Source of the DNA: a virus
Length of the DNA: 36,578 nucleotides
Reading direction: 5' to 3' (one strand)
IMG/VR virus record: IMGVR_UViG_3300008450_000166
Span: 1 to 36,578 of that record
Under the pieces are notes generated by a model, which worked only from the letters and a program-made list of their open reading frames with translations, made no database searches and had not been told where the DNA came from. This document shows, one piece after another, positions 1,905-5,617 of this stretch; the stretch's first letter is position 1; each line of letters starts with the position of its first letter. The translations under genes and the position numbers were made by a program.

Positions 1905-2108
1905 ATGGCAAACAAGAAACCGAAATACAGATTCTGGAAATCCGAAACAGATGGCTTGTGGTACTTCCACCTTCGCGGTGCGAATGGTAAGGTGCAACAA
2001 CCATCAGAGGGATATGCCAGCAAACAAAAGTGCGTTGAAGGAATTGAACGCGCTCGCAGAAACGCAACCATCGCAATCATTGAAGAGATAAAAGACCCAA
2101 ACCCATGA
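1905..2108 (+). CDS. DUF1508 (YegP-like) domain protein
   Basis: A 67-residue single-domain protein. The segment WYFHLRGANGKV followed by SEGYASKQKCVEGIERARRNA matches the DUF1508/YegP repeat (FxLKAxNGxxIxxSExYxSKxxxxxGIxxVxxNA in bacterial members). The family's biochemical role is not established. It starts four bases after the tailspike stop and overlaps the ParB-like gene by four bases (ATGA), so it probably belongs to the same transcript as the DNA-modification block. Whether it takes part in modification is unknown. Confidence 0.75.
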   Translation: MANKKPKYRFWKSETDGLWYFHLRGANGKVQQPSEGYASKQKCVEGIERARRNATIAIIEEIKDPNP

Positions 2109-2662
2109 GCGTTGAAATCACAAAAACAGAATTCGTTGACATCAATTCAATAAGGTCAAACGAAAAGAATCCGCGTTACATTAAGGATAAGGAGTTTCAA
2201 GAACTGGTCAAAAGCGTAACCGACTTTCCAGAGATGCTTGAAGCAAGACCGTGTGTTGTTGACGAGGATGGAATCATACTCGGTGGCAATATGCGTCACC
2301 GCGCTGCTGTTGCTGCTGGATTGAAGCAGATACCAATTGTTCGCATGATTGGATTAAGTGAAGAAAAGAAGCGAGAGTTTATAATCAAAGACAATGTAAG
2401 CAAAGGAAGCTGGGATTGGGATATGCTTGCAAATGAATGGGATTTAAGTGAATTAAATGAATTCGGATTCGATGCTTTCAAATACAATCCAGTCAATCTT
2501 GAAGATTATTTCAAAGAAGCAACTGAAAATGAAACCGAAACCGATAAAGTGAAAATAACACTAATACTAACAAAAGATGAATCAAAAAAAATAATCGAAG
2601 CAACAAAAAAATATGACAAAACAATTGAAGGTGGAATATTAAAAATGATTGACAGTATTTAA
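2105..2662 (+). CDS. ParB/sulfiredoxin-fold protein, possible DpdB-type partner of DpdA
   Basis: 185 residues. Residues 10-100 carry ParB-like nuclease-domain motifs: a NPR box (22-24), then IILGGNMRHRAAVAAG around residues 57-72, the equivalent of the ParB GERR box. A second half (about 95-185) ends in a helical segment and is clearly AT-richer than the first. ParB-like proteins of this type usually sit beside phage DNA methylases; here the next gene, two bases downstream, encodes a DpdA-like transglycosylase. In bacterial dpd islands DpdB, described as a ParB-superfamily ATPase, acts with DpdA to insert preQ0 into DNA. A similar partnership here is inference from position and fold. Confidence 0.75.
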   Translation: MSVEITKTEFVDINSIRSNEKNPRYIKDKEFQELVKSVTDFPEMLEARPCVVDEDGIILGGNMRHRAAVAAGLKQIPIVRMIGLSEEKKREFIIKDNVSKGSWDWDMLANEWDLSELNEFGFDAFKYNPVNLEDYFKEATENETETDKVKITLILTKDESKKIIEATKKYDKTIEGGILKMIDSI

Positions 2663-2664
2663 TC

Positions 2665-3402
2665 ATGATAATCTATTTAGCGGGATTAACAAACAAAGAG
2701 TTGTTGTTGATTAAAGATAAAGCGTACATTTTAGAGTCATTTGCTTATATCAAAAAACATAAGAAATGTATTTCAGAGTTATTGAAACATGAATTTATTT
2801 TAGATAGCGGAGCATTTACATTTATAGGAAACAATAAAAAAAAAATAGATTGGGATTCTTACACCGATTACTACATTGAATTTATTAATAAATACGATAT
2901 AAAGAATTATTTTGAATTGGATATTTATTCAATTGTAGGATTAGAAGAAACAGAGCGATTGAGAAAAAAAATTGAACGAGCAACCAATAAAAAATCAATT
3001 CCGGTCTGGCACATATATTTGGGAATTGATTACTTCAAAAAAATGTGCGAAAATTATTCATATATAGCAATCGGTGCAAGTGGAAGGCACGACAGTAAGT
3101 GGACGCGAAGCAACCCAGATAAATTAAAAGCCTTGATTGATTACGCTTCATCAAAAAAAGTAAGGGTGCATGGTTTAGGTTACACCAACATGACAATGTT
3201 AAATGAATTAAATTTCTATTCAGTTGATAGCACTTCATGGATGAATGGTTCTAAATATGGAGAAGTTCAATATTTTGATGGAAGGATAATAAGAAAAGAA
3301 TCTACAAAAAAACACAAGGCAAAAACCATTGATTCAAAAGAGATAATTAAAAACAATATCAATCAATGGTTGAGTTATCAAAAATACATGAAACATAAAT
3401 GA
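2665..3402 (+). CDS. dpdA: DpdA-like DNA-guanine transglycosylase
   Basis: 245 residues, the size of compact phage DpdA proteins. The TGT-barrel landmarks are visible: LDSGAFT (D47, candidate general acid/base), YFELDIY (D86, candidate nucleophile), IAIGASG (135-140), VHGLGYTN (168-175) and YSVDSTSW (185-192). The family exchanges guanine in DNA for a 7-deazaguanine base, in contrast to tRNA-acting Tgt. It starts two bases after the ParB-like gene and overlaps the next gene by ATGA, in an AT-rich patch. Downstream genes supply the modified base. Substrate (preQ0, CDG or another derivative) cannot be read from the sequence. Confidence 0.85.
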   Translation: MIIYLAGLTNKELLLIKDKAYILESFAYIKKHKKCISELLKHEFILDSGAFTFIGNNKKKIDWDSYTDYYIEFINKYDIKNYFELDIYSIVGLEETERLRKKIERATNKKSIPVWHIYLGIDYFKKMCENYSYIAIGASGRHDSKWTRSNPDKLKALIDYASSKKVRVHGLGYTNMTMLNELNFYSVDSTSWMNGSKYGEVQYFDGRIIRKESTKKHKAKTIDSKEIIKNNINQWLSYQKYMKHK

Positions 3403-4151
3403 ATATAATCGGTCATTCAACAATTGGCTTAATAGGGTATTTAATCACTAATGAATATTTGTTTTTGATAGGAAGTATCATTCCAGATTCAGCATTAATA
3501 TTCAATGAATTAAAATTGAAACAATTCGACAAATGGGATGTGAAATATAAATGGATGTATGATTTAACGCATTCACTTTATGCACCATTAATCATAAGTT
3601 TCATTTCTATTCCTTTGTTTGTTGGTTGGTTAATTCATATTTTAATTGATGTGCCTTTTCATTCATCATCGTTCAGATGGAAGCCATTTTTATTTGAAAG
3701 GTACAAAGAAAAAAGAAAAGTGTTATTGCTTAGTGGTGGTGCAGATAGTATTGCGTGTGCCGAAATAGAAAGGAATTACGATTGTATATTCTTTGATTAC
3801 GGTCAGAAATATTTAAGTTCAGAGCTTGAATGTGCAGTCGAATATTGCAATAAGAAAAATCTAAAGTTGCAGATAATCAAGACGGAATGGGGACACGATT
3901 GCAAAAACAGAAATTATTTAATGATAACTAAGATACTGCAACTTGGATATGATGAAGTTATAATTGGCACAAGGAATTTATTTCCTTTTACAGATAAATA
4001 CAAAGACAGTAATTGGTTTAATCTAAAGATGCTTCAATATCTTTATGGCATTTATATTAATATGCCTTTGATTGGAAAATTAAAGTATCAAATAATTAAA
4101 CTCACAAACAATTATAAATACTATTCAACAGAAAAACAATGTACACAATAG
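3399..4151 (+). CDS. membrane metal-hydrolase-like domain fused to a shortened QueC-like domain
   Basis: 250 residues in one unbroken frame. Residues 1-90 resemble the DUF457/YdjM-type membrane-bound metal-dependent hydrolase family: H6, PD (29-30), TH (57-58) and HILID (80-84), with hydrophobic segments near 8-28 and 61-84. Residues 107-250 are QueC-like: PP-loop SGGADS (112-117), FDYGQ (132-136), KNRN (169-172, matching the GRN box) and DKYKDSNW (199-206). QueC converts 7-carboxy-7-deazaguanine to preQ0 with ATP and ammonia. The usual C-terminal four-Cys zinc site is absent; only C248 remains. The gene overlaps queD by 13 bases. I know of no described fusion of this kind. Confidence 0.75.
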   Translation: MNIIGHSTIGLIGYLITNEYLFLIGSIIPDSALIFNELKLKQFDKWDVKYKWMYDLTHSLYAPLIISFISIPLFVGWLIHILIDVPFHSSSFRWKPFLFERYKEKRKVLLLSGGADSIACAEIERNYDCIFFDYGQKYLSSELECAVEYCNKKNLKLQIIKTEWGHDCKNRNYLMITKILQLGYDEVIIGTRNLFPFTDKYKDSNWFNLKMLQYLYGIYINMPLIGKLKYQIIKLTNNYKYYSTEKQCTQ

Positions 4152-4501
4152 CAAAAGAATTTCATTTCAGCGCATCGCATCAGTTAAGCGGATTGCCCGA
4201 CGACCATCCATGCTCGCGTCTTCATGGTCATAATTATGTATTCAGAGTTCACTTAAAATCCGATACTCTTAATGAAGTTGGATTTGTTGTTGATTACAGA
4301 AACCTTGACGACATCAAAAGGTTTATTGATGATGCGCTTGACCATAAACATCTGAATGATTTTCTCCCATTCAATCCAACAGCAGAGAATATGGCAAAGC
4401 ACTTTGCTATTGAGTTCAATAAAGTTCACCCAGAAGTATATGCAGTCGAAGTAGAAGAAACACCAAAAACAATTGCTCGTTATGAAATTAAAGGTATCTG
4501 A
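4139..4501 (+). CDS. queD: 6-carboxy-tetrahydropterin synthase QueD
   Basis: 120 residues, normal length for the family. Zinc ligands H14, H29 and H31 are present, with the catalytic Cys in PCSRLHGH (C25); D68-H69 and the substrate-binding E107 in VEETP complete the active site. The enzyme turns 7,8-dihydroneopterin triphosphate into 6-carboxy-5,6,7,8-tetrahydropterin, the second step to 7-deazaguanines. The gene overlaps its neighbours on both sides, consistent with coordinated expression. Its G+C content is clearly higher than that of the fusion gene just upstream. Confidence 0.93.
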   Translation: MYTIAKEFHFSASHQLSGLPDDHPCSRLHGHNYVFRVHLKSDTLNEVGFVVDYRNLDDIKRFIDDALDHKHLNDFLPFNPTAENMAKHFAIEFNKVHPEVYAVEVEETPKTIARYEIKGI

Positions 4502-5084
4502 AATATTCTACACCTTGCAAGGCGAAGGCGCAAGGGCAGGAACCGCAACAATATTCATTCGCTTATCTGGATGCAAGACAAAGCACGCTTGCGCTGCATC
4601 TGGTATAGTGTGCGACACAGAGTTCGAGAGCGGAAAAGAAATGACTCTCACGGAAATTCGTGACTGGATTTATGATAACGCTGGTGATTGTAAAGAAATC
4701 ACTTGGACTGGAGGCGAGCCACTTGACCAACTTACGGAAGAAATTATTGCAGACTTTAAGAGTTACGGATTTTTTCAAGCCGTAGAAACATCTGGACTTC
4801 AGCCGATGGTTAAAGGACTTGATTTTATTTGCCTTTCACCAAAAGTGGCAGAACATATTGTGGAAAAGAATTTCCCAGATGGAGTTACAGAACTTCGCTA
4901 TGTTCGCCACTTCGGTCAATCAATTCCAGAACCAAAAGTAAAAGCACAGCACTACTGGGTATCTCCGCATAGCGATGGATTCACTATAAACAAACGAAAC
5001 CTTGCTCACTGCATTCAATTATGTAAAGAGAATCCGAAATGGAAATTATCAGTTCAACAACACAAGCAATGGAACATCCTTTAA
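4482..5084 (+). CDS. queE: 7-carboxy-7-deazaguanine synthase QueE (radical SAM)
   Basis: 200 residues from ATG 4482 (a TTG at 4473 would add three). MKLKVSEIFYTLQGEG is the typical QueE start and TWTGGEP (75-80) the SAM-binding GGE motif. The cluster cysteines lie in CKTKHACAASGIVCDTEF (C31, C37, C44), spaced CX5CX6C instead of CX3CX2C. QueE makes 7-carboxy-7-deazaguanine from 6-carboxy-tetrahydropterin. It overlaps queD by 20 bases, and folE starts within its end. The unusual spacing belongs to recognised variation among QueE proteins, but I cannot confirm which cysteines hold the cluster. Confidence 0.9.
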   Translation: MKLKVSEIFYTLQGEGARAGTATIFIRLSGCKTKHACAASGIVCDTEFESGKEMTLTEIRDWIYDNAGDCKEITWTGGEPLDQLTEEIIADFKSYGFFQAVETSGLQPMVKGLDFICLSPKVAEHIVEKNFPDGVTELRYVRHFGQSIPEPKVKAQHYWVSPHSDGFTINKRNLAHCIQLCKENPKWKLSVQQHKQWNIL

Positions 5085-5617
5085 TGACACCAGAGGAAGC
5101 AATGAAAGTAGTCATTGCAAATTTCGACAATACAGAAAGAGAAGGGTTGAAAGAAACCCCAGTACGCTACATTAAATTCCTAAAGGAGTTTCTGAATCCC
5201 GAACCATTTAAGTTCACCACATTTGATGCAGAGGGAATTCAAACAATGATACTGCAGACAAACATACCTTTTTACTCATTGTGCGAACATCACCTTGCCC
5301 CTTTCTTTGGGGTGGCTGCCGTAGCGTATATTCCTGACGACAAGATAGTTGGGTTATCAAAACTGGCAAGATGCGTTGATTTGTATGCCCGAAGATTTCA
5401 AAATCAGGAACGCATCACAAAACAGATTGCTGACCGATTGATGTCAGAACTCAATCCGCAAGGAGTCGCAGTATCAATCACAGCACAACATCTTTGCATG
5501 GCGATGAGAGGAATAAAGAAACACAATACAAACACAACCACAACCGAACTGACTGGTCTATTTAAAGAAAACACATCTGTGAGAGCAGAATTCTTAAACG
5601 CAATCAATGGGAAGTAA
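5039..5617 (+). CDS. folE: GTP cyclohydrolase I
   Basis: 192 residues from ATG 5039, with ATG 5069 and ATG 5084 (TAATG overlap with the queE stop) as alternatives; the conserved domain begins after residue 16, so all are possible. Zinc ligands C82 and H85 (CEHH) and C153 (QHLCMAMRG) are present. The enzyme opens GTP to 7,8-dihydroneopterin triphosphate, the first step of the 7-deazaguanine route. A phage-borne folE would relieve competition with host folate synthesis. An AAAGAGAA tract upstream of 5039 is a weak argument for the long form. Confidence 0.93.
   Translation: MEIISSTTQAMEHPLMTPEEAMKVVIANFDNTEREGLKETPVRYIKFLKEFLNPEPFKFTTFDAEGIQTMILQTNIPFYSLCEHHLAPFFGVAAVAYIPDDKIVGLSKLARCVDLYARRFQNQERITKQIADRLMSELNPQGVAVSITAQHLCMAMRGIKKHNTNTTTTELTGLFKENTSVRAEFLNAINGK

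Follow-up and report, generated by a model that had tools for sequence, protein, structure and literature searches.

The window, the entire 36.6-kb virus record (36,578 nucleotides), contains a single gene in which a YdjM-type domain is fused to a zinc-less QueC-like PP-loop domain. We favor, with a probability of roughly 55%, a model in which this fusion is the phage QueC-step enzyme making the 7-deazaguanine that DpdA places in phage DNA.

3399..4151, plus strand: fusion gene, YdjM-type domain plus zinc-less QueC-like PP-loop domain (250 amino acids, open frame, 12 relatives)

Confirming the original prediction of one unbroken 250-residue frame, the gene runs from ATG to TAG with no internal stop, a stretch of 250 stop-free codons expected from base composition alone with p ~2e-7. 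The motifs that had been read from it (H6, PD 29-30, TH 57-58, HILID 80-84, SGGADS 112-117, FDYGQ 132-136, and KNRN 169-172) all lie at the positions claimed. A search for the same fusion beside DpdA in other phages had been suggested, and our IMG/VR scans, which used the protein and growing alignments, detected it at full length in 12 further distinct proteins on 16 uncultured-phage contigs, with 41 to 67% identity to the window protein. A frameshift at the junction, which the prediction had itself raised as grounds for doubt, is ruled out by the same open frame on these 16 contigs. Furthermore, both halves appear to be under purifying selection in the two closest pairs of fusions, the synonymous distances of most other pairs being large or saturated: dN/dS was 0.36 for the N-domain and 0.06 for the C-domain in the pair L011-L004, and 0.11 and 0.12, respectively, in the pair L017-L018. 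With 12 further distinct sequences and selection on both halves against it, the idea that a frameshift, misassembly, or chance made two genes merely look fused has a negligible probability, and we rejected it.

In a tree, the C-domains of the fusions formed one clade (bootstrap/SH-aLRT, 100/99), which is consistent with a single fusion event; the N-domain was probably joined to QueC once, in an ancestor of the operon. Scans with the N-half or the C-half alone returned fusions and only two weak QueC-like matches (L049 and L050), neither of which is fused. Among isolate phages, the N-domain matched none at E 10, and the whole fusion protein found only weak QueC matches. Two scans of bacterial genomes detected no fusion, and we rejected a host origin; the second scan recovered other QueC-superfamily proteins, mostly of ~200 amino acids with a Cys motif kept. 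Translation of a free QueC domain from an internal start was also rejected, as the candidate codons present in the window (GTG108 and TTG110) are not conserved.

The fusion gene lies within a run of genes for 7-deazaguanine synthesis and insertion, sharing 4 nt with dpdA at its 5' end and 13 nt with queD at its 3' end:

2105..2662, plus strand: ParB N-terminal-domain protein, first gene of the run (PF02195, 28.9 bits; adjoins DpdA in relatives)
2665..3402, plus strand: DpdA-like DNA guanine transglycosylase (phrog_887, E 4e-54)
4139..4501, plus strand: QueD-like 6-carboxytetrahydropterin synthase (PF01242, E 9e-32)
4485..5084, plus strand: QueE-like radical SAM protein, start codon uncertain (phrog_2076, E 8e-22)
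5039..5617, plus strand: FolE, GTP cyclohydrolase I (PF01227, E 1e-60)

The resulting order, ParB-N, DpdA, fusion, QueD, QueE, and FolE, was that of most relatives and was altered in L021 and L048, and the fusion lay directly 3' of DpdA wherever the flanks of relatives were examined. A PF06508 search of the window detected no second QueC, the fusion gene being the only match. Identity to the window proteins in several phages was 60 to 73% for the fusion and QueE but only 25 to 39% for the terminase, suggesting cassette-like movement of the operon.

Several features of the neighboring genes were observed alongside. A ParB N-terminal-domain gene directly before DpdA also occurs in very different phages, such as phiFN37 and Pantoea phage AH07, and one lies just after DpdA in Cellulophaga phi47:1. 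Fusobacterium phage phiFN37 carries after DpdA a gene annotated as a queuosine precursor transporter (L023:7226-7828) with no synthesis genes adjoining, which is a salvage-type DpdA operon. In four loci (L017:9949-10803, L019:9760-10590, L067:3616-4440, and L073:6131-6970), FolE has an N-terminal extension of ~100 amino acids holding a PRPP-loop-like stretch, e.g., LIVDDIVDSGAT, which in L017 matched Pfam Pribosyltran at no better than E 0.16. This extension could be a candidate phosphoribosyltransferase recycling the guanine that DpdA releases. The relative L048 is an 11.6-kb contig that, at 52% GC, is the most GC-rich of the set, with QueE placed before QueD.

The C-terminal half of the protein carries most of the motifs of a QueC enzyme:

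3711..4148, plus strand: QueC-like PP-loop domain without zinc motif, residues 105-250 (PF06508, 33.9 bits; Cap9 Z 14.6; QueC Z 13.3)
3732..3749, plus strand: SGGADS 112-117, ATP pyrophosphate loop (SGGxDS invariant in 13)
3798..3824, plus strand: Y134-G-Q136-(x)5-E142, counterpart of QueC YxQxHxxE with Cap9-like spacing (invariant, 13/13)
3906..3914, plus strand: NRN 170-172, counterpart of VPxRN (invariant, 13/13)
3999..4010, plus strand: YKDS 201-204, counterpart of YPDC with the Cys replaced (Y201, 12/13; D203, 13/13; S204, 13/13)

The PF06508 score of the window protein exceeds the gathering cut-off of 22 bits, and the distant fusion L060 falls just under it at 20.2 bits. With the NCBIfam QueC equivalog TIGR00364, the window protein scored 32.7 bits, below the cut-off of 150.3. 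The ATP-loop residues S, G, G, D, and S, together with Y134, Q136, E142, R171, D203, and K229, are invariant in all 13 fusions. Other positions depart from QueC: the His of YxQxHxxE is replaced by Tyr and its Glu is shifted one residue further, R171 and N172 of VPxRN are kept in 13/13 but VP is not, and the Cys of YPDC is Ser throughout. The C(x)8CxxCxxC zinc motif is absent, and the fusion proteins end where the zinc region would begin. With the motif and the YPDC Cys missing and the equivalog cut-off unreached, the C-half is a truncated, zinc-less QueC-superfamily variant rather than a canonical QueC, a distinction absent from the original prediction.

An AlphaFold2 model of the whole fusion had a pLDDT of 81.4. 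The best structural match to its C-half was Cap9 (rmsd 3.1 over 142 residues), followed by QueC (3bl5; rmsd 3.1 over 143 residues), with a ThiI-type protein behind both (Z 11.6). One study defines the YxQxHxxE motif and describes Y35, R99, and Y131 of Escherichia coli QueC as essential (PMC13329287); their counterparts here are Y134 and R171, kept in 13/13, and Y201, kept in 12/13. In Cap9, a Tyr/Asp pair that is common to QueC stacks on and reads the deazaguanine (PMC13279940). Because these essential residues and the nucleobase Tyr/Asp are kept, the C-half appears, judging from its sequence, to retain recognition of ATP and of a 7-carboxy-7-deazaguanine (CDG)-type substrate. The exception, which counts against a QueC-step role, is L048, where HGDS stands for YKDS and His thus replaces the nucleobase-stacking Tyr.

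The N-terminal half was less readily identified:

3399..3710, plus strand: N-domain, residues 1-104, divergent YdjM/Zn_dep_PLPC-type, all-helical (hhalign; sub-threshold PF00882; AlphaFold2)
3414..3416, plus strand: H6, putative metal ligand, matching YdjM H6 (invariant, 13/13; hhalign pairing)
3483..3488, plus strand: P29-D30, matching YdjM P45-D46 (invariant, 13/13; hhalign pairing)
3570..3572, plus strand: H58 of a T/S-H-S motif, matching YdjM H76 (invariant, 13/13; hhalign pairing)
3636..3662, plus strand: H80-x3-D84-x3-H88 helix, with H80 and D84 matching YdjM H113 and D117 (invariant, 13/13; hhalign pairing)

Comparison by hhalign of the N-domain profile with one built from 11 diverse YdjM proteins of E. 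coli and plasmids gave a probability of 96.1% (E 3.3e-9) over 86 columns from residue 1, against 0.4% and 0.1% for reversed controls. Pfam YdjM (PF04307) matched 8/13 N-domains with a best E of 6.7e-5, all short of its gathering score of 29 bits (21.1 bits for L060). Zn_dep_PLPC (PF00882) matched 9/13 below E 1, with a best E of 1.8e-5 and a sub-threshold 20.3 bits for the window N-half (cut-off, 26.8). All 13 fusions, down to 41% identity, have H6, D30, H58, H80, D84, and H88, and the residue before H58 varies between T and S. In the YdjM set, an HR pair never varies and the PDxD motif nearly always has its second Asp; the fusions have neither. On this evidence the N-domain is, at the level of sequence, a divergent YdjM relative. 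Both proposed domain identities are supported, and the fusions found in relatives speak against the other anticipated objection, an N-terminal half of unrelated fold with no fusion among its homologues.

The N-domain model is all-helical (pLDDT 82.6), with a helix spanning residues 71 to 87 that carries H80 and D84, and H88 just beyond. Searched alone against solved structures, it had no PDB match above noise by which to judge a putative phospholipase C/P1 nuclease fold. The six invariant His and Asp residues probably bind a metal. The domain has one hydrophobic stretch, at residues ~64 to 86 (peak Kyte-Doolittle, 2.4); because this stretch overlaps helix 71-87, it could span a membrane or instead be a buried helix at the metal site. 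A membrane location would be consistent with the YdjM relationship, and both it and the action on the base, pyrophosphate, or a nucleotide suggested in the original prediction are putative. Membrane and hydrolase are terms carried over from YdjM, a family annotated as metal-dependent hydrolases, and serve for the N-domain only as predictions.

We also surveyed which proteins occupy the QueC slot across 80 loci in a DpdA-family scan. Five distinct free zinc-less QueC-like proteins of 141 to 145 amino acids (L067, L068/L069, L071, L073, and L096) lie downstream of ParB and DpdA and upstream of the QueD/QueE/FolE genes. These lie at L067:1970-2392, L068:4370-4792, L071:2073-2492, L073:4591-5016, and L096:5677-6111, the 152-residue frame listed for L071 starting 12 residues upstream of the common start. 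They form a clade separate from the fusions (90/94) in a tree that did not resolve a sister relationship, and they look like the smallest QueC-superfamily enzymes among those found and simpler to assay than the fusion. Full-length QueC proteins of 220 to 227 amino acids with YPDC intact and all four zinc Cys replaced lie beside DpdA, for example at L076:5739-6401, L083:922-1584, L085:5668-6327, L095:4701-5372, and L140:5032-5712. QueC proteins of ~220 amino acids in L102, L107, L122, and L133 have the Cys motif intact, and L022 and L049 encode another unfused form with a Cys cluster kept. We considered Cellulophaga phages phiSM and phi47:1 as possible chemically characterized relatives and rejected them, since they have a separate QueC of ~236 amino acids and a QueF rather than the fused form.

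The N-domain was not found in 37 sister-phage records, most of them fragments. A YdjM profile detected no separate YdjM gene in the short-QueC phages, but this profile also misses known fusions. The presence of free zinc-less short QueC proteins in the same slot suggests that neither zinc nor the N-domain is needed there, and that the N-domain is probably accessory to base synthesis; these short forms had no part in the original prediction.

These findings support a model in which FolE, QueD, and QueE would convert GTP to CDG, and the C-domain of the fusion would bind ATP and CDG and adenylate the CDG carboxylate. Ammonia would then displace AMP to give 7-amido-7-deazaguanine (ADG), or preQ0 after a second round, and DpdA would swap ADG or preQ0 for guanine in DNA. 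The N-domain would have an accessory role, for example in anchoring the enzyme to the membrane, keeping it within a complex, or removing a by-product. The position of the sole QueC-family match of the window within the DpdA-fusion-QueD-QueE-FolE run supports this model, as do the top structural matches, Cap9 and QueC, both of which act on CDG. With the zinc motif, the YPDC Cys, and the canonical length missing and the equivalog score low, the product may differ from preQ0. We infer DNA modification in the fusion phages from DpdA and, by analogy, from work on related operons (PMC6884629).

Since short-QueC phages do without the N-domain, we rank an accessory or tethering role for it first: such a role is probably likelier than catalysis, and the domain is probably not a step that every such phage needs. 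However, the strictly kept His/Asp set exceeds what a mere tether would need, and this conservation leads us to weigh a catalytic role as a possible, if doubtful, alternative. The YdjM-type domain would then be a metal-dependent hydrolase acting on a by-product, nucleotide, or base of the pathway, or an ammonia-releasing partner; in GMP and NAD synthetases, ammonia is released by glutaminase or nitrilase domains. Equally tentative candidates for the by-product are pyrophosphate from the PP-loop step and triphosphate from QueD. The profile match to annotated metal-dependent hydrolases and the sub-threshold match to zinc-dependent phospholipase C favor catalysis, against which stand the loss of the YdjM GHR motif and second Asp, the N-domain evolving faster than its partner domain in one of the two pairs that could be compared, and its absence from the short-QueC sister records, which are mostly fragments. 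YdjM is not known to have a tested activity. The fuller proposal, that catalysis on a 7-deazaguanine-pathway compound lets the fusion make a base, or recycle a by-product, beyond what QueC alone does, is unlikely.

Two further alternatives concern the C-domain. It might convert CDG otherwise than by amidation, for example towards a decarboxylated base, leaving the DNA with CDG or with some product that is neither preQ0 nor ADG. The lost zinc motif and YPDC Cys and the unreached equivalog cut-off would fit such chemistry, and phage DNA with carboxy- and unsubstituted 7-deazaguanine has reportedly been described in the paper that named DpdL (Cui 2023). Yet the ATP loop and the residues required for preQ0 synthesis are kept, and the full-length phage QueC proteins that also lack the zinc Cys indicate that amidation is not necessarily lost along with zinc, making this conversion quite improbable. 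A C-domain acting on a protein as Cap9 does, instead of making a free base, would account for Cap9 being the top structural match, for the shared Y-x-Q(x)5E spacing, and for the shortened fold. Nevertheless, neither a CD-NTase nor a QatB-like gene lies in the run, no protein of the operon starts with Met-Gly, the fusion lacks the zinc motif of Cap9, and its position between DpdA and QueD indicates a role in supplying the base. The QueC model of PADLOC has no preference for the fusion: it scores canonical QueC as high or higher and does not discriminate, so we rejected a special sequence affinity to Cap9. Altogether, we consider action on a protein very unlikely, and we return to QueC-step base synthesis as the preferred reading.

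In the openly searchable literature, we found no QueC fused to YdjM/DUF457 or to a metal-dependent-hydrolase domain, in agreement with the initial claim that no description of such a fusion was known, and the accessible part of a 2026 survey of PF06508 does not mention one. The novelty of the fusion is provisional. It represents an added domain architecture in the phage 7-deazaguanine DNA-modification pathway. Together, the fusion, the short unfused proteins, and the full-length QueC proteins lacking the zinc Cys suggest that reduction of QueC to a zinc-less core happened in phages more than once, and zinc may therefore be unneeded for CDG activation as such. To our knowledge, YdjM/DUF457 proteins are widespread and of unknown function. 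If the N-domain is active, the operon would limit what it could act on to a handful of compounds of the pathway, providing a first substrate for the YdjM/DUF457 family and a route to testing its role.

Among known proteins, A0A6J5N497 of an uncultured Caudovirales phage, which has 252 residues and is 60% identical across 250 columns, with a full-length TM-score of 0.8, belongs to the same fused family and is named "Queuosine biosynthesis protein QueC," with the N-domain absent from the name. Canonical QueC shares with the fusion the PP-loop fold, SGGxDS, the Tyr/Gln/Glu motif, RN, the Y-x-D nucleobase motif, the conserved Lys, and queD and queE as neighbors. In contrast, the fusion lacks C(x)8CxxCxxC, has YKDS instead of YPDC, spans ~146 rather than ~222 residues in its QueC-like part, and carries the extra N-domain. 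The free short zinc-less proteins occupy the same operon slot and have likewise lost the zinc region, and their YKDN/YPDN motif resembles that of the fusion, but they have no N-domain and form a separate clade.

Cap9 of type IV CBASS resembles the fusion in its shortened QueC core and in the Y-x-Q(x)5E spacing found in 13/13 fusions. Unlike the fusion, which lacks the CE(x)6CxxCxxCxD motif, Cap9 keeps its zinc motif and modifies a CD-NTase; the neighbors of the fusion are DpdA, QueD, QueE, FolE, and ParB-N, with no CD-NTase adjoining. With the YdjM/DUF457 inner membrane protein (PF04307), the N-domain shares H6, PD, T/S-H-S, and HxxxD in the same order, whereas it lacks GHR and the second Asp of PDxD, gains H88 and E37, is shorter, and is joined to QueC. 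The known phage QueC fusion, Gat-QueC of phage 9g, is likewise a QueC with an extra domain in a DpdA operon, but its extra domain is a glutamine amidotransferase and its product is archaeosine (PMC6884629).
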